Of a DNA stretch of 37,541 nucleotides, positions 2,406 through 37,541 are shown piece by piece. Both the position numbers and the translations under genes were made by a program. Source of the stretch: a virus; IMG/VR virus record IMGVR_UViG_3300047552_001151, positions 1 to 37,541 of that record; one strand, 5' to 3'. Below the pieces are notes generated by a model, which worked only from the letters and a program-made list of their open reading frames with translations, was not told where the DNA came from and ran no database searches. Positions within the stretch are counted from its first letter, which is position 1, and every line of letters begins with the position of its first letter.

Positions 2406-3675
2406 AGCTAAGGTAAGAAAGATAAAACTGCTTCCTTACCAAGAGGTATTCATACATGATCACACTCGCTACTTGGCACTAGTAGGAGGACTTGGTACAG
2501 GAAAAACAAAGAGCGCCGTATACAAGGCGCTTTATCTGTTGCAAACAAATAAAGGTTGCAGTGGTATAGGTTGTGAGCCAACGGGTCCACAGTTGTCAAT
2601 TTTCACAACTGAGATGGATAAGACATGCCAAGAGCTAAACATCAAATACAAATATAACGGTGGTGGCAGAAATAGTCCTGCCTTCTATCAATTTGATTTT
2701 GGGGCTGGTCCACAGCGCCTTTGGTTAGTATCTGCTGAGAACTATAAGCGAACACTAGTTGGTTACAACGTAGCATTTGGTTTTGTTGACGAGTTTGACA
2801 CGATACCAAATAAAGAAGAAGCATTACAGATGTGGAATGCTCTTAATGACCGCTGTCGCGACCCTAAAGCAAAGCTAAGGCAAACATATTGCACAACTAC
2901 GCCAGAAGGTTTCCATGCAGTGCATCACTTGTTTGTGGAAAACGCGACAGAGCAGCACAAGCTAATTCAAGTTAGCACGTATGAAAACAAATTCCTGCCT
3001 CCATCATATATTGATGATCAATTAAAGCGTTATACACCACTGCAAGCAAAGGCAAAGATATATGGTCAATTTGTGAACGCCTTTTCTGGTGCTGTCTACT
3101 ATTGCTTTGACAGAGAAAAGAATTTCACAAATAAGACTATCGCTGATTTTCCCACAAATGCCATCCTACATATTGGCATGGACTTCAACGTAGAGAACAT
3201 GAGCGCAGTAATCAGCATTGTGCAAGACGGTAAGGTGTATGTGGTTGATGAAATCACTGGCGAGAAGAATACGCAAACAATGATTCAAGCATTAAAGCGT
3301 AAATTCCCTAATCGCGTTATGTACATCTACCCAGACAGCAGCGGTAAGAGTAGCAGTGCTAATGCATCTGTTAGCTCTATGACAATGCTTAAGGATGCAG
3401 GTTTCCAATGCTTCTACAAAGGCAATAACCCAAGCATCGTCAAAGAACGAGTACCAGCAGTTAATGCGCTCTTTAAGAATGCAGCAGAGGAAATGCGCTG
3501 CTTCGTAAACTTAAACAAGTGCACAGTATTAGTTAAGGGTTTGGAACAACAAGGCTACCTAAATGGAAAACCAGACAAGACAAGTGGACTTGATCACTGT
3601 CTTGACGCCTTTGGCTACTTCTGCGCATTCCGCTTTCCTGTAGTTGGTCACGGCAGTATCACCGTGCATAAATGA
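2398..3675 (+). CDS. terL: Terminase large subunit
   Basis: A 425-residue packaging motor: an N-terminal ATPase drives DNA into the prohead and a C-terminal RNase H-like nuclease cuts it. Visible motifs are Walker A GGLGTGKT at 30-37, Walker B ending in D131-E132 (FGFVDEFD), and metal-binding acids of the nuclease at D262 (HIGMDF), D313 (YPDSSG) and D399/D403 (GLDHCLDAF). Length is typical of the family. The start overlaps the small subunit gene and the portal gene follows after 33 bases. The packaging type (cos or headful) cannot be read from the protein alone. Confidence 0.95.
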   Translation: MSKAKVRKIKLLPYQEVFIHDHTRYLALVGGLGTGKTKSAVYKALYLLQTNKGCSGIGCEPTGPQLSIFTTEMDKTCQELNIKYKYNGGGRNSPAFYQFDFGAGPQRLWLVSAENYKRTLVGYNVAFGFVDEFDTIPNKEEALQMWNALNDRCRDPKAKLRQTYCTTTPEGFHAVHHLFVENATEQHKLIQVSTYENKFLPPSYIDDQLKRYTPLQAKAKIYGQFVNAFSGAVYYCFDREKNFTNKTIADFPTNAILHIGMDFNVENMSAVISIVQDGKVYVVDEITGEKNTQTMIQALKRKFPNRVMYIYPDSSGKSSSANASVSSMTMLKDAGFQCFYKGNNPSIVKERVPAVNALFKNAAEEMRCFVNLNKCTVLVKGLEQQGYLNGKPDKTSGLDHCLDAFGYFCAFRFPVVGHGSITVHK

Positions 3676-27727: not shown

Positions 27728-27754
27728 TGCTGCGTGATCTAATAAAATAAATAC
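27728..27754 (+). promoter_or_regulatory. Possible promoter of the early/replication operon
   Basis: TTGCTG is followed about 17 bases on by an AATAAATAC-rich stretch (27747-27754) with -10-like hexamers. Weak by itself; the long structured leader that follows supports it. Confidence 0.3.
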
Positions 27755-27810
27755 TGTGTAGGCAGCGGTTGTCTACATTCATGTTTATTAGTTATTTTTC
27801 ACTTTAGTTA

Positions 27811-27946
27811 TAGCACCTGTCCCCTTCAATGGGGATAAGGGCTGAGTAAAGCGATTGACCTTGCTTTGCTCTTACTAATGCCTAGTAACCAGAAAACGGA
27901 TGTTCGAAACCATCCGTTTTCACCCAGTTTCGAGGGGGATTACTAG
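27811..27946 (+). ncRNA. Structured leader RNA with boxA-like element (nut/put-like candidate)
   Basis: Stems in order: CCCC/GGGG at 27821/27831; GAGTAAAGC/GCTTTGCTC at 27844/27863; an outer CTAGTAA/TTACTAG at 27882/27940 enclosing an 11-pair GAAAACGGATG/CATCCGTTTTC hairpin at 27892/27911. The hairpin loop (TCGAAAC, 27904-27910) is perfectly complementary to GTTTCGA at 27927-27933. TGCTCTTACT at 27867-27876 resembles boxA of lambda nut and rRNA antitermination sites. It ends 29 bases before the first early gene. Candidate antitermination or attenuation element. Confidence 0.6.
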
Positions 27947-27975
27947 TAGCACATGGTTGCATAGGAGAATCACAA

Positions 27976-28224
27976 ATGACAGATTACAAAGTAATAGAAT
28001 CAATATTACTCACTATCAAGCCGCCTAAAACTTCTGACGGCGATATAGATAGAGAAGATTTAAAGATGTGGGCAAATAAGGCATATGAATATGGCCTGTC
28101 CAAAGAGCAATGGGATAAGTTTGTCTACACGCACATTAAAGGGCACTACACAACAGGTAGCCAAAGCAGAGATGTACTTTTGCCCCTTATGGCTAAAGCA
28201 TTCTACCAAGAGTGGATTAAATGA
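27976..28224 (+). CDS. Unknown early protein, 82 residues
   Basis: First gene of the early operon, with TAGGAGA before the ATG. Helical, with a DGDIDREDLKMWANKAYEYGLSKEQWDKFVYTHIKG section that could be a small helical DNA- or protein-binding bundle. No family recognised. Its stop overlaps the next start (ATGA). In this position small proteins often modify the host or regulate replication. Confidence 0.7.
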   Translation: MTDYKVIESILLTIKPPKTSDGDIDREDLKMWANKAYEYGLSKEQWDKFVYTHIKGHYTTGSQSRDVLLPLMAKAFYQEWIK

Positions 28225-28520
28225 ATAACGAAGAATTGGTATTAGCCAACTTAAAGATTACAAAGTCTGAAAGCGACATGCTTTACAGGGAATACAGTCC
28301 TTACATATTTGCATCCTACGCAGATAATTTAAAAGTAATAGAGACTAAGCGCGGTGTGCAATTGGATATGACAGAAGAGGACTTTGAACGCCTTATGGAT
28401 ATGGCTGCACATGGGTTACACCATAGACGCTTTATGGACACGCATCCTGCCGCACAAGACTTATATATGCAGTACTTAGAAATGTACCACTTGACAATGA
28501 GCTACAGGAGTGAGAGATGA
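28221..28520 (+). CDS. Unknown early protein, 99 residues
   Basis: Overlaps both neighbours by 4 bases (ATGA joins). All-helical by pattern, acidic in the middle (DMTEEDFERLMDMAAHGL), with a histidine pair HHRRF near residue 72. No motif, membrane segment or signal seen. Co-translated with the primase genes. Confidence 0.7.
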   Translation: MNNEELVLANLKITKSESDMLYREYSPYIFASYADNLKVIETKRGVQLDMTEEDFERLMDMAAHGLHHRRFMDTHPAAQDLYMQYLEMYHLTMSYRSER

Positions 28521-28777
28521 AAACAAAAAGCCCAATAACGATTGATGCTGAAAATGCCGTTAGACAAGTAATAGCCAACATTGGCTTTGTAGAAAAATGT
28601 TTAATTCTAAATATTGATCCTATTGAGAAATTACAAGGTTTCTTAGATACATATCCATATCGTGAAGCTGATGTTAACTGGACTAAACAAGATATCAAAG
28701 ATAGAGAAGATTGGATGCAAGGCGTAGAGAATGTAATAGAGGAACTTAGGGAGGCAAAGAAGTGGAATACAAAATAA
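28517..28777 (+). CDS. Unknown early protein, 86 residues
   Basis: Overlaps the previous gene by 4 bases and the primase gene by 16. Helical and charged, with a C-terminal EDWMQGVENVIEELREAKKW helix. No family recognised. The tight overlap argues for a role close to replication. Confidence 0.7.
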   Translation: MKTKSPITIDAENAVRQVIANIGFVEKCLILNIDPIEKLQGFLDTYPYREADVNWTKQDIKDREDWMQGVENVIEELREAKKWNTK

Positions 28778-29688
28778 CTTACTTCGCTAACTTTCACGAT
28801 ACTTGTGTAGAAGTACACGACAGTATTGAGTGGGAGGAAATGGTATCGCTGTTTAGCGAACACACTCTTACAGAGAATAAAGACGGAATGATGTTTAATC
28901 TCTGCTCTTTTAAAGACAGGGATGGCATTAGGTGTGCAGACAATGTAGACAGCTACTATGGGCTAGTGCTTGACTATGATGGACATGGTGCAACACTAGA
29001 AGGCATTGTAGATAGATTCTTATCGTTTACACACTTAGGTTACACAAGCTTTAATCACGTTATTAAAGGCGTAGACAAGATGCGTGTCGTATTGCCGTTC
29101 ACTACACCTTGCCCAAAGGATGAATGGGAATCGCGCAAAGCAGGATTCTTAGAGTTTGCGGGTATTGAGATTGATAAGTCCTGCATATCGCATTCGCGTT
29201 CCTTTTACATGCCAGCATGTCCAGCAGCTGGTGTAGAGCATAAGTTAGCGTGGAACGTTAAAGGTGAGTGGCTTGATTGGACAGTTTTTGAGCCAGAGGT
29301 TAAGCCTGCCTACGTGCCTCCTGCTCTTACCTTTACAACTACACCAACTGACATGCAACGAGCGCTAGACGAGCTGTTTAGGCACGTTCCTGTAATGGAT
29401 AACGAGGGTAGGTATTGGCTTGTACGTGCAGTAGCAAGAGAGATAGGGGAAACCGCTGCGATAGCGGAATGCCAAAAGCGGTGGCCTGATGCAAATTGGA
29501 ACGGTAAGTATATAGATCAGGTTAAGCGTTTAACAGAGAATGGTCCTGGAATGGGGGCCATCATTAACAAGATTAAGAAATTTAATCCAACATACAAAGC
29601 TATTACAAAAGACGATTACAGGCTCGCTGTACTCAAAGCTAACATAAAAGTAATAGAAGAAAAATTAAAGGAATTGGAAAATGAGTAA
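28762..29688 (+). CDS. Archaeo-eukaryotic-type primase
   Basis: A 308-residue protein starting with GTG at 28762, with GGGAGG nine bases upstream. LVLDYDGHG supplies the acidic pair D71/D73 of the AEP fold, and SHSRSFYMPA (143-152) with H144 and R146 is the characteristic second motif of plasmid and phage primases of the RepB'/VapE-associated type. Residues 200-270 are a helical C-terminal domain (WLVRAVAREIGETAAIAECQKRWPDANWNGKY). It would make primers at the phage origin. It overlaps the ATPase gene by 8 bases; in many phages the two domains are fused. Confidence 0.8.
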   Translation: MEYKITYFANFHDTCVEVHDSIEWEEMVSLFSEHTLTENKDGMMFNLCSFKDRDGIRCADNVDSYYGLVLDYDGHGATLEGIVDRFLSFTHLGYTSFNHVIKGVDKMRVVLPFTTPCPKDEWESRKAGFLEFAGIEIDKSCISHSRSFYMPACPAAGVEHKLAWNVKGEWLDWTVFEPEVKPAYVPPALTFTTTPTDMQRALDELFRHVPVMDNEGRYWLVRAVAREIGETAAIAECQKRWPDANWNGKYIDQVKRLTENGPGMGAIINKIKKFNPTYKAITKDDYRLAVLKANIKVIEEKLKELENE

Positions 29689-31042
29689 TATTACAAAGAG
29701 GGAAGACATAGATGATATGTCTAAGGATGAATTAAAGAAGCTCTTGATGCTGATGCAGGCTGCAACTAAGAAGCAATCTCTCATTGAGTTTGTTGATAAG
29801 AATGCTAAGGGTGTAGTTAAGAAGACTTTAGAGAATACGCAACAGCTTCTAGACCACTATGGTATTACTATTCGCTACAACGAGATGACTAAGAACCATG
29901 AGTACTATATTCCTAATAAAGAGTTTCATGGCGACACCAAGGCTAATGCGGAGATGGCATATTTGAAGTCGTTAGCTAGGGATCAAGAATTACCTGTTGA
30001 TGATTTATTTGAACACGCCACATACATTGCTAACCAGAACGCCTATCACCCTGTTAGGGATTGGGTGGACAATATTGAATGGGACGGAAAAGATAGGTTG
30101 CAAGATTACTACGCTACTATCCAAACTACGGATATTGAGTTAAATCTTAAAGAGACATTTATGCGTAAATGGGCGCTTAGTGTTATGGCTGCTCTGTACC
30201 ACCCTAACTTTAGCTGTGAAGGTGTCCTTGTACTTTACGGTTTACAAGCTACAGGTAAGACGTCGCAAGTTTATTCATATTTCCCTAAAGAGCTTGCATT
30301 GGACTGCGTTAAGACAGGCGTTACGTTGACGGTTAGTGATAAGGACAGTGTGTTAAAGGCAACTAGCTCTTTAATTACTGAATTAGGCGAATTAGGCGCT
30401 ACCTTTAAACGCAGCGATATTGAGCAGTTGAAGGGATTTATTACGGAAAAGACAGACGTTGTTCGTCCCCCATACGAGCGCAAAGCAAATAGCTACAGCC
30501 GCCGCACTGTGTTCTACGCTACGGTGGACAAGTTAGGATTTTTGCAAGACGAAGAAAACAGACGCTTTTGGGTTCTAAACGTATCTGCTGTCAAAGCACC
30601 AAAATATGATTTAGGACAGTTTTGGGCACAGATGAAGGCGATGTATTTCGCTGTAGCACCTAAGATTACTACGCTAGAAGACCGCATTAAGCATAACGAA
30701 TGGGGATGGTTCTTAAGTCCTGCTGAACGACAAGCGTTAAAGAACAGTCAAAGCGAGTTTAAGAGCATTGACCCTATACGCGAGTTGCTGGACGATAAAC
30801 TTTACAGTGCACAAGATACGGTGATTAAGGGTGGCGAGTGGAAGAATAGCACCGCAATATTGCTTGGATGTGGCAAATCTAATGTCCATAAGTCTGAGAC
30901 TAATGTGGTTGCTGCGTTTTGCAGGGAAAACGGTTACCAATATAAGCCAAAAGGTAAGATGTTCTATGTTCGCTTTAAGGAAGCAATTATCTCTGGCATA
31001 AATGGTCCAGTTCCTAAGTTCAAAAGTAGGACGGAGGACTAA
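29681..31042 (+). CDS. VapE-like replicative ATPase/helicase
   Basis: A 453-residue protein of the virulence-associated E family. It contains the lead-in VRDWVDNIEWDGKDRLQDYY, Walker A GLQATGKT at 187-194, an LITELGELGATFKRSDIEQLKGFIT segment (acidic Walker B region plus sensor helix), and RRTVFYATVDKLGFLQDEENRRFWVLNV with the family's RRF-W. Together with the primase it is a split primase-helicase for phage replication. A candidate origin follows directly. The C-terminal 80 residues (SNVHKSETNVVAAFCRENGYQYK) look like a winged-helix DNA-binding end. Confidence 0.88.
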   Translation: MSNITKREDIDDMSKDELKKLLMLMQAATKKQSLIEFVDKNAKGVVKKTLENTQQLLDHYGITIRYNEMTKNHEYYIPNKEFHGDTKANAEMAYLKSLARDQELPVDDLFEHATYIANQNAYHPVRDWVDNIEWDGKDRLQDYYATIQTTDIELNLKETFMRKWALSVMAALYHPNFSCEGVLVLYGLQATGKTSQVYSYFPKELALDCVKTGVTLTVSDKDSVLKATSSLITELGELGATFKRSDIEQLKGFITEKTDVVRPPYERKANSYSRRTVFYATVDKLGFLQDEENRRFWVLNVSAVKAPKYDLGQFWAQMKAMYFAVAPKITTLEDRIKHNEWGWFLSPAERQALKNSQSEFKSIDPIRELLDDKLYSAQDTVIKGGEWKNSTAILLGCGKSNVHKSETNVVAAFCRENGYQYKPKGKMFYVRFKEAIISGINGPVPKFKSRTED

Positions 31043-31536: not shown

Positions 31537-32587
31537 AGCTGACTAGCGCCCCTACCGTTTTTTTGTCAAGTGAAAATCCTATTATTTTTCACTTTTTTTC
31601 AACTATTTTCGAATATTTTTCACTACTCTGTCCTATAAACCCACTGCACCTTTCACTAAGAAGTAACTCAGTTACTGGTGTGCCTTATTATTAGGCTGTC
31701 AAGCCAATCAGGTAATACCAGACTAATAAGACCTGACTTTAATCGACTTATAGAATCAATCATTTAAAAATTGCAGCGGGTAGTCATGACTTAACCATCA
31801 GCTCACTGTGGATAAAGGCAGTGGTATAGGTACAGTAACCATCAGCTCACTGCCTTTTCATACAGTGAGCTTATCTAATTGATTACCTGTCAAGCGATCT
31901 AAAATAAAAATAAAAAATAAATTTATTTCTGTGCGAATGGTATTGACAGCGATCATCAGGTAGTGATGGTCTTACCAATGTGCCTTAATAGTAGGCACAC
32001 TGTTATGCACAGTAATCCCTATGTGATAATCACTGTGCTATAGGATGTATAGCGATGTATCAGCCATAGGTAGTAAGGCTTAAGGACGCTCACTAATCCT
32101 TTATACAGTGCATTAGTGTTAAATGCATTATTGTCACATCCGTGTCACACCTTGTGCGGTCAAGCGTGGGGTGGTGATGGAGATAGCGATGGGAGATAAG
32201 ATGTAATCAACCTGTCAACAGTAGAGCATAGTAGACTAGGGTGGCTGGTTAATCGCTAAGGCTTGACAGGGGCCGCGTTGAAGGTGACAGAGTAGGGCGC
32301 GGCAGTCATCGTTGTCGCGAACGTTTTAAACTTGGGACTATTACTGGTAACTGTATCTTCTACAGTGCATGTAGGGGTATGCCTACTATTACTACACCTT
32401 TGCCCCCGCAATTTTTGTTCGACAGTTTCAAAATCCTAATTAAATTATCTTGCCTTCTATAGCCCTGTTTAAAGCAATATTCCACTGTCCAGCTACCAGT
32501 GCATACCCTACGAAAAAATCGCTGTTTTGACGCACGAAACAAGCCGTTTTGAGGCTGTTTTCATGCGGTTTAAGCGTGTTTCAGGCA
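31537..32587. other. Non-coding, repeat-rich 1.05 kb region
   Basis: No credible gene. It contains TTATTTTTCACTTT at 31582; the hyphenated palindrome GTAACT-C-AGTTAC at 31663-31675; a 17-base direct repeat (TAACCATCAGCTCACTG) at 31792 and 31836; AGCTCACTG/CAGTGAGCT stem at 31844/31863; TGTGCCT/AGGCACA stem near 31979-31999; GCACAGT/ACTGTGC at 32007/32032; CCTGTCAA/TTGACAGG at 32211/32263; and ACTGTA/TACAGT at 32350/32361. CTGTCAAGC recurs at 31696 and 31887. TGTCACA occurs twice, one helix turn apart, near 32132-32149. Candidate regulatory RNAs, second origin element, or partition-like site. Confidence 0.6.
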
Positions 32588-32611
32588 AGAAAAAGCGCCA
32601 ATAAAGGCGCT
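32588..32611 (-). terminator. Rho-independent terminator (minus) after adhesin-E-like gene
   Basis: AGCGCC/GGCGCT stem at 32594/32606 around AATAAA, followed on the minus strand by TTTTCTT. The 18-base stem-loop is identical to the one at 33142-33159. Confidence 0.85.
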
Positions 32612-33135: not shown

Positions 33136-33159
33136 TAAAAAAGCGCCAATAAAGGCGCT
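33136..33159 (-). terminator. Rho-independent terminator (minus) after SmpA-like gene
   Basis: The same 18-base AGCGCC-AATAAA-GGCGCT stem-loop as at 32594, here followed on the minus strand by six T residues. Confidence 0.88.
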
Positions 33160-33179
33160 TAAGTGGAGTAGGGTAGGTA

Positions 33180-35979: not shown

Positions 35980-36466
35980 TACGAGCATGGTTTTTCTCTC
36001 TGCGCTACACTGTTGTCACACATTTTGCAGTGTGACAAAGTGCGTTAAGTTAGTGTTTGCCAACCCCAAAACGACGTGCCTAAAGGCTGCAAAAGTTGTG
36101 ACAAATCTTAAACAGTAACACCTGACAGATGGTTGTAACAGCTAGAACCCGCATAGACACTGGCTTTGCTGCTATTGTTTTTGCACACGGTATTAATTCT
36201 TACAATTCCTCCCGCCTCTTTTGACCTGCTAAGTTAGTAGGTACTGCCTCTGTAAGCAGCATGGATGCTGGCTTTCTCAACTTTAGAACTCTCTACCTAA
36301 CTAGATTCTGTTGAAATCTAGCGGGTAGGAATTAGTTTTTCAGAAAGTTAAACAAAACCAGCTTGTACGCTGGGAGGCAAGGCAATAGAATGTAATTCCT
36401 ACACGCTGTCAGACTGCGTAAAGTGTGACAAAAACTGCTACAAAATCACAGTGAAAAGGAAGAAAA
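35980..36466. promoter_or_regulatory. Repeat-rich region upstream of integrase (possible attP/control region)
   Basis: No gene seen. TTGTCACAC at 36013-36021 is perfectly inverted as GTGTGACAA at 36030-36038, and the TGTGACAAA word recurs at 36097 and 36424. CTAGATT/AATCTAG at 36301/36315 is flanked by CTACC/GGTAG at 36293/36324, forming an extended hairpin. CCAGC/GCTGG pairs at 36358/36369. Candidate sites for integrase arms, excisionase or a repressor. Confidence 0.5.
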
Positions 36467-37534
36467 ATGGCTACTAAGGAACTCCCAAAAGGGCTGTTGC
36501 TAAGGGGCGACACGTACCACCTTCGCTTTACGTACAAGGGCAACCTAGTTGCGGAAAGTGCACACACGAAGGACTTACGCGAAGCAGAGCGACTACTCAA
36601 CAAGAAGAAGGCAGAGCTGCACCAGTTGGTGGTAATGGGAGGAGGGCGCATCACTACGCTACACAAGGCAGTGGATGAGTACGTTGCGAGCATCCTCAAA
36701 ACGAAAGGCAAGAACGGCGCGAGGGTGGCGTTAAAGAAGGTTACGGATGCAATACCCAACAAGTCCGTTAAGAAGGTGGAGATGCACGAGATAGAGAACG
36801 TGTTTAGTGATCTATCTAAAACGTATAAGGCAAGCTCCGTTAAGCTCTATAAGTCATATTGGAATGCCTTTGCTAACTGGTGCGAGAAGCAAAAGTATGG
36901 AGATATAGGTAGGTTTGCTATTGGGACAATGAAGTACGGGCGCATTCGCTTCTTAACACCAGATGAACAAAAGAAGCTATTAGCGGAACTAGGTTACAAA
37001 GAGGATTACAAAGGTAAAAATCCAACAACAGATAAAGCAAGGGGAGAAAATTACGACTTAACCGTAATGCTGTTGGACACAGGACTTAGGTACAGCGAAG
37101 CAGCAAAGATGGATTGGTCACAAGTGGATTTAGACAGAAAATTGCTCTACGTCTATCGCTTAAAGGACGGTACACCTACTACTTTGTCACTTACAAATCG
37201 TCTTTATGAGGTCTTAGTGCGCCGTAGGAAGGATGTTGAAGGCGAATACGTCTTCCCAACCAAGCTAACCAACACCAATAACGGCTGGAAATGGATGGGA
37301 ATAGCAGCTAAAAGGGCAGGGATTTCGCTCACGCAGGGCAACATAACGCCGCACATCTGCAGACACACGTTTGCAACAACGATGGTTCAGAACGGCGTGT
37401 CATTACAAGAGCTGCAGCACCTGTTAGGACACTCGTCCATTGAGATGAGCTTGCGTTATGCACACTTTCAAAAGCAAGATGCAACAGCTAAGGCAGCAGC
37501 GATCCTCAATAAACAGAATGAAGCTATCGCGTAA
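36467..37534 (+). CDS. int: Tyrosine integrase
   Basis: A 355-residue site-specific recombinase for phage integration and excision. Residues about 10-50 form an N-terminal beta-type arm-binding domain (LRGDTYHLRFTYKGNLVAESAHTKDLREAERLL). Residues about 65-150 are the core-binding SAM-like domain. The catalytic domain has R208 (DTGLRYSEAAK), H296 and R299 (PHICRHTF), H322 (LLGHSS) and nucleophile Y331 (LRYAHF). Full length, with AAGGAAG before the ATG. Its end is repeated at positions 1-179, so the reading continues into the H-NS region on a circular map. Confidence 0.95.
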   Translation: MATKELPKGLLLRGDTYHLRFTYKGNLVAESAHTKDLREAERLLNKKKAELHQLVVMGGGRITTLHKAVDEYVASILKTKGKNGARVALKKVTDAIPNKSVKKVEMHEIENVFSDLSKTYKASSVKLYKSYWNAFANWCEKQKYGDIGRFAIGTMKYGRIRFLTPDEQKKLLAELGYKEDYKGKNPTTDKARGENYDLTVMLLDTGLRYSEAAKMDWSQVDLDRKLLYVYRLKDGTPTTLSLTNRLYEVLVRRRKDVEGEYVFPTKLTNTNNGWKWMGIAAKRAGISLTQGNITPHICRHTFATTMVQNGVSLQELQHLLGHSSIEMSLRYAHFQKQDATAKAAAILNKQNEAIA

Positions 37535-37541
37535 CAGCGCA
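37356..37541. repeat. Terminal direct repeat, right copy
   Basis: Matches 1-186 with one difference at 37414 (G here, A at 59). The final 127 bases are identical to 60-186. Confidence 0.9.

Follow-up and report, generated by a model that had tools for sequence, protein, structure and literature searches.

The window analysed here, a stretch of 37,541 nucleotides of viral DNA, corresponds to positions 1 to 37,541 of the IMG/VR record IMGVR_UViG_3300047552_001151. On its plus strand, a leader precedes a replication operon (27976-31042) that comprises three small ORFs, a primase-like gene (28762-29688) and a gene encoding a VapE-like helicase (29681-31042), with a Shine-Dalgarno-like AGGAGA (27963-27968) serving the first ORF, which starts at 27976. 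A promoter-like start region (27743-27754) consists of TAAAAT followed directly by AAATAC, and its TAAATA box is common to the compared leaders. We infer that the transcript starts near 27755 and that the working molecule is the transcribed RNA. Elsewhere in the window, the integrase gene has its 3' end spanned by a 186-nt direct terminal repeat (1-186 and 37356-37541, 99.5% identical). Though classed as linear, the record probably represents a complete genome, circular or permuted, of about 37.36 kb. The replication operon is followed by a long non-coding stretch (31540-32450), a candidate replication origin, which contains numerous repeats as well as strong hairpins (z about -6.8 near 31741-31930). 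The end of the early operon carries an AT-rich, terminator-like hairpin, GTGAAAA...TTTTCAC followed by a T run (31566-31600), which a GC-demanding terminator scan missed. Two near-identical minus-strand terminators, AGCGCCTTTATTGGCGCT (32594-32611 and 33141-33160), adjoin small secreted-protein-like genes, one of them with similarity to Adhesin_E, and strong folds are also predicted within the terminase gene (3061-3190) and before the integrase gene (36241-36370), both with z about -7.

The leader itself (27756-27960) folds far better than shuffled sequences, with z about -6 to -6.7. For its segment 27811-27946 the minimum free energy is -58.9 kcal/mol, whereas 200 dinucleotide shuffles average -32.9 and none of them reaches so low a value (z -6.5); the fold of 27756-27990 gives z -5.9. 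Immediately 3' of the inferred start lies H0, a 5' hairpin of 9 bp (27756-27778), followed by the outer stem P1, in which 27779-27797 pairs with 27937-27956, leaving 27941 and 27950 unpaired. P1 has pair probabilities of 0.91-1.0 at 27780-27792, encloses every hairpin except H0 and has equivalents in other leaders. Inside it, hairpin P2 (27812-27843), of the form ACC...CCCC-TTCAAT-GGGG...GG, is equivalent to P2 of leaders L324, L003, L333, L017 and others, and is followed by P3 (27844-27871), with 11 bp including two G-U pairs and a 5' arm, GAGTAAAGC, identical to that of L324. The next element is a small hairpin, TTACTA/TAGTAA (27872-27888, pair probability 0.7-0.99), whose 3' arm doubles as the 5' arm of an alternative CTAGTAA/TTACTAG stem (27882-27888/27940-27946) that is excluded by P1 and costs about 4 kcal/mol to force. 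Copies of CTAGTAA, TTACTA and TTATTAG allow several mutually exclusive pairings, and inclusion of the next 30 nt shifts the lowest-energy fold so that part of the Shine-Dalgarno region pairs with 27794-27800; the outer pairing is therefore less certain than the inner hairpins. A repeated ATTTTTCACT (27794, 31584 and 31615) did not exceed chance.

The core of the leader consists of two adjacent hairpins. Hairpin A (27892-27921) has 11 perfect base pairs (27892-27902/27911-27921, pair probability 0.95-1.0) and an 8-nt loop, TTCGAAAC, while hairpin B (27923-27936) has a CCC/GGG stem and the loop AGTTTCGA. Positions 27904-27910 of the first loop are perfectly complementary over 7 nt to positions 27927-27933 of the second, and the pairing is best described as loop-loop kissing. 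Two hairpins with complementary loops in this arrangement were found in 14 of 8000 shuffled window leaders under a looser setting (kiss of at least 6). The loop of hairpin A also carries the palindrome TTCGAA, and the hairpin core, a terminator-like stem CGGATG/CATCCG-TTTT, is followed by TTTTC. The earlier note on this DNA had described an 11-pair hairpin with a loop complementary over 7 bases to a downstream segment, which is exact at 27892-27921 and 27927-27933, the segment being the loop of hairpin B. The perfect stems it reported are present as P2, P3 (two of its pairs being G-U) and the CTAGTAA/TTACTAG arms, the last of which are disfavoured relative to P1. Likewise, the structured RNA of about 135 bases that it proposed does fold strongly, but the element is longer, H0 and P1 having escaped that first reading.

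Searches for known families returned no covariance-model match at the gathering score in the window with Rfam 15 (including C4 and pRNA), three chance matches far below the cut-off for the leader alone at E up to 10, and nothing relevant in the relatives. The leader showed no DNA similarity to cultured phages, and an exact pattern for the hairpin A arm gave 0 matches. For the leaders of L017 and L088 the only matches were short hairpins in unrelated phages, a strict pattern returned a coding false positive (L087), and loose patterns yielded mostly chance matches and were useful only for L088. Leaders of relatives, all uncultured phages, were gathered from IMG/VR via the VapE-like helicase and a Prim-Pol alignment; no close relatives of the window primase were found, and cultured phages with distant helicases (Mano, Mica, Alexa, SFCi1 and PY6) present different operon layouts.

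Leaders were assigned to type 2 when they held, before the primase operon, adjacent hairpins A (at least 9 bp) and B (at least 3 bp) with loops of 7-9 nt sharing at least 6 complementary bases. The window, L326/L327, L329, L331 and L332 present this arrangement, with A and B 0-1 nt apart and inside P1. The letters of the window, L327, L329, L331 and L332 leaders are wholly different, and so are their loop pairs: TCGAAAC/GTTTCGA in the window, GTGAGAA/TTCTCAC in L327 (and L326), CTGAACC/GGTTCAG in L329, TGGTAG/CTACCA in L331 (7 with a G-U) and CTCGCCT/AGGCGAG in L332. Loops from the same phage form a mean of 6.8 Watson-Crick pairs, compared to 2.5 and never more than 3 for loops swapped between phages (n = 5), and among all 120 permutations the true assignment ranks best, a test that guards only in part against the segments having been defined after the folds were seen. 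Modules with a stem of at least 9 and a kiss of at least 7 occur only six times outside these leaders in 5.9 Mb, both strands, by manual count from the descriptor-search list, a chance rate of about 1 per Mb. Hairpin B and the kissing helix together span 10-12 bp, similar to the 9-11 bp of hairpin A, and the two could lie side by side in one molecule. No conserved unpaired letters were found in type-2 elements, and the A stems of the relatives have no U-tract after them. Since MAFFT alignments of these elements ignored structure, the counting of pairs relied on segments placed by hand; the independent members amount to five type-2 loop pairs and six type-1 pseudoknot helices, several of the relatives' records being fragments.

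A second group of leaders follows a different layout (type 1), consisting of P1, a strand that pairs with the P3 loop to form a pseudoknot, P2, P3 and, in most, P4. It is found in nine leaders (L003, L004, L006, L017, L018, L088, L319, L324 and L333), several of them near-duplicates, with P2 usually reading ACC...TTCANT...GGT and the P4 hairpin loop GCAAG or similar. Distinct helices number six for the pseudoknot, where the changes are compensated, seven for P1, seven for P3 and six for P4, with no mismatch in the listed segments; the pseudoknot of L088 taken alone is not significant (5 bp, 0.11). The P2-P3 portion of the window resembles that of L324, with a similar H0 region and the same hexaloop TTCAAT. 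P1, P2 and P3 are all present in the window, but a search for a strand between P1 and P2 that could pair with its P3 loop produced no convincing candidate. The window accordingly combines a type-1-like P2-P3 with a type-2 A-B module.

Both types always lie between the TAAATA start region with its 5' hairpin and the replication operon. L320 has the start box and lacks the element, even though its primase shares 68% identity with the one encoded by the type-1 phage L088. Because the window combines both modules and L320 lacks the element despite this primase, the leaders look like exchangeable cassettes, which may carry type 1, type 2, both modules or none. The two folds differ in topology, and a shared function is an assumption on our part. 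Some leaders show further features at this place. Directly after the type-1 element, L004 (1527-1574) and L018 (1787-1834) contain a 15-codon ORF (MTISQGHKSHTI.IV) with a good Shine-Dalgarno sequence, a possible leader peptide that is absent from L006 and L017. In the equivalent place, L325 (2903-3018) harbors a TAAATA box along with a hairpin enclosed by a stem and a strong intrinsic terminator, CCCCGATTATTGCCGTTTTCGGGG-T7, followed by a second TAAATAA box ahead of the operon; this could be a small RNA or an attenuator, or just the end of the upstream operon.

At the level of sequence comparison, these results show that pairing and shape, rather than letters, are kept by selection in a leader at a constant place. 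The covariation search that the earlier note had suggested as a check turned out favorably, the loop pairing being retained with compensated changes across five phages, and its view of a complex, selected RNA ahead of the early/replication operon is upheld by the strong fold and by the covarying loop pairing in relatives.

The context of these leaders is also informative. TAAATA is present in 14 of 15 aligned leaders, L006 having TAAGTA instead, and is preceded by TATAAT in L088/L319 and by a TTGACA-16-TATACT promoter in L327. In several relatives the gene upstream ends in the TAA of the box, so read-through from upstream may occur there. A hairpin follows the box in all 12 of the 12 leaders inspected for it (mean z -2.3), with differing arm sequences. 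The first genes of the operon differ between phages and contain no recognised domain, which points to action on the whole transcript or on the polymerase, not on one gene; the first genes of the window, L003 and L088 had no family match in searches that short arginine-rich peptides can escape.

Taken together, we tentatively propose that the leader is a cis-acting, RNA-only element that acts on the early transcript or RNA polymerase and is put-like in logic without being a member of put. This protein-free action on transcription carries the highest single weight among the readings considered, and we still hold it as a possibility short of an expectation. Lying at the 5' end of the early (replication) transcript, the structured RNA would fold while RNA polymerase leaves the early promoter. 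It would need no dedicated phage protein to act in cis, its most likely target being the elongating polymerase or the access of Rho (antitermination or antipausing, as with HK022 put), with the result that the long co-directional replication operon would be transcribed through. Among the scanned proteins, neither an N/Q-like gene product nor an RNA-binding domain was recognised, which makes an action by RNA alone reasonable, and the element suits such a role because its hairpins stand at the very start of the transcript, before phage-specific first genes. Since no integrase (PF00589) or HTH_3 repressor gene was found in the records of the relatives, the role would belong to ordinary early expression. 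No strong intrinsic terminator was detected inside the window replication operon. Downstream terminators, suggestive in a first list, were discarded as a correlate, since with one filter they occurred in 4/12 element-bearing phages versus 0/6 others, which is not significant. To our knowledge, very few cases of protein-free control of early phage transcription have been described. The broader proposition, that these kissing-hairpin and pseudoknot cassettes form an exchangeable, hitherto undescribed family of phage leader RNAs constituting a protein-free processive antiterminator besides HK022 put, is more tentative still. Such a shape-defined family, in apparently virulent uncultured phages, would escape sequence searches and Rfam, and its leaders would provide compact RNA parts.

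An antitermination site of the nut type, proposed in the earlier note on the basis of a boxA-like element, was not supported. The boxA-like TGCTCTTACT is indeed present at 27867-27876, but it is not distinctive: the window contains 11 copies of YGCTCTTWM, most of them inside genes, against 3.1 expected, with no shuffle reaching 11. The first half of TGCTCTTACT is buried in the P3 stem and the word has no constant place in relatives, so that the leader does not present a single-stranded boxA at a constant position. No boxB-plus-N arrangement was found.

Among the alternatives to an RNA-only action on transcription, we rank first, while considering it unlikely, an autogenous translational operator, in which a replication protein would bind the leader and the A-rich ribosome-binding-site stretch and stop translation of its own operon. 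In type-2 leaders roughly 20-45 nt, including an A-rich stretch, separate the end of the structure from the first start codon, the operon encodes DNA-binding replication proteins, and the Shine-Dalgarno region of the window is able to pair with 27794-27800. However, the first genes vary by phage and the type of element does not track them, type 2 offers no conserved unpaired letters for recognition, and the Shine-Dalgarno sequence lies outside P1. Ranking below it, and doubtful in our judgment, is a 5' stability element, whereby the 5' hairpin and the knotted domain would protect the early mRNA from 5'-end-dependent decay and, any compact fold being sufficient, fold types would be freely exchanged. 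The constant presence of the 5' hairpin, the lack of sequence conservation in type 2 and the cassette-like replacement of leaders agree with this explanation, but a plain 5' hairpin would do, and the fact that exact long-range pairing is retained points to a more specific requirement.

The earlier note's other suggestion, a switch between hairpin A and a competing helix that would control the terminator-like stem, draws on the mutually exclusive pairings of the CTAGTAA, TTACTA and TTATTAG copies and on the TTTTC after the hairpin A core. We regard it as improbable and do not favor it, given the near-complete pairing probability of hairpin A, the joint retention of A, B and the loop pairing in relatives and the absence of U-tracts after their A stems. 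We assign even less probability to RNA immunity of the P4 CI or P1 c4 kind, in which a processed leader RNA would pair with the leader of an incoming phage and terminate early transcription. The leader of a replication operon is the same place as that of P4 CI, a segment complementary to the loop is present nearby and covaries, and in the window an integrase is present while no CI-type repressor was recognised; yet a single closed domain holds both partners, a second copy of the target was not seen downstream, and there is no Rfam C4 match. Moreover, PF00589 and HTH_3 are absent in 15/15 other records, several of 33-45 kb and some of them fragments, and the relatives look virulent, which makes lysogenic immunity unlikely as a general function; in the window itself, with its integrase and no recognised repressor, it may yet apply. 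Least probable of all, pairing of the loops between molecules (as an RNA multimer or a phi29 pRNA-like packaging RNA), or stem-loops serving as ssDNA or primer origin structures, is suggested by the complementary loops of two arms that a closing stem encloses and by the palindromic TTCGAA, but is countered by the lack of an Rfam pRNA match, the presence of a large terminase, lengths that fit intramolecular pairing (A of 9-11 bp beside B of 3-5 plus 7) and the better candidate origin in the repeat-rich stretch at 31540-32450.

Several known systems provide a frame for the RNA-only reading and its alternatives. The phi29 pRNA is a three-way junction with two arms that bear complementary loops, as seen here, but the present element has no Rfam match and lies ahead of replication genes, in a phage whose large terminase is an ordinary one, and its 7-bp loop pairing can close within one molecule. 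P4 CI and P1-P7 c4 are structured leader RNAs of replication or antirepressor operons, and the element described here shares with them both this location and the complementary segments nearby, while differing in that the partners belong to one closed domain, the relatives appear virulent and Rfam C4 is not matched. T4 gp32 shuts off its own translation at a pseudoknot in its mRNA operator; as in that operator, a tertiary fold and then an unstructured ribosome-binding-site stretch precede a replication gene, but here the fold is a kissing-hairpin or multi-hairpin pseudoknot domain and no SSB was identified. With lambda nut (boxA/boxB with N) the leader has in common its position and a boxA-like word, which in the window is not distinctive and is not accompanied by a recognised N-like gene.

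HK022 put is a structured RNA of ~70 nt at the start of the early transcript, with two adjacent stem-loops and no dedicated protein, and adopts a V shape with a 5' duplex/triplex; it makes sequence-specific contacts to the polymerase zinc-binding domain, specific bases being needed for this contact (PMC9378689). No loop-loop pairing is described for put in the sections consulted (PMC9378689). In HK022 we recognised putL by its AGACG/CGTCT 5' duplex and then folded it; the window leader has no AGACG-N7-CGTCT and, instead of a two-stem V, forms a P1-closed multi-hairpin domain. In contrast to put as portrayed there, the loops of the present leader kiss inside P1 and its type-2 module has no fixed unpaired letters, but both are structured RNAs at the start of an early transcript and would share a protein-free logic.
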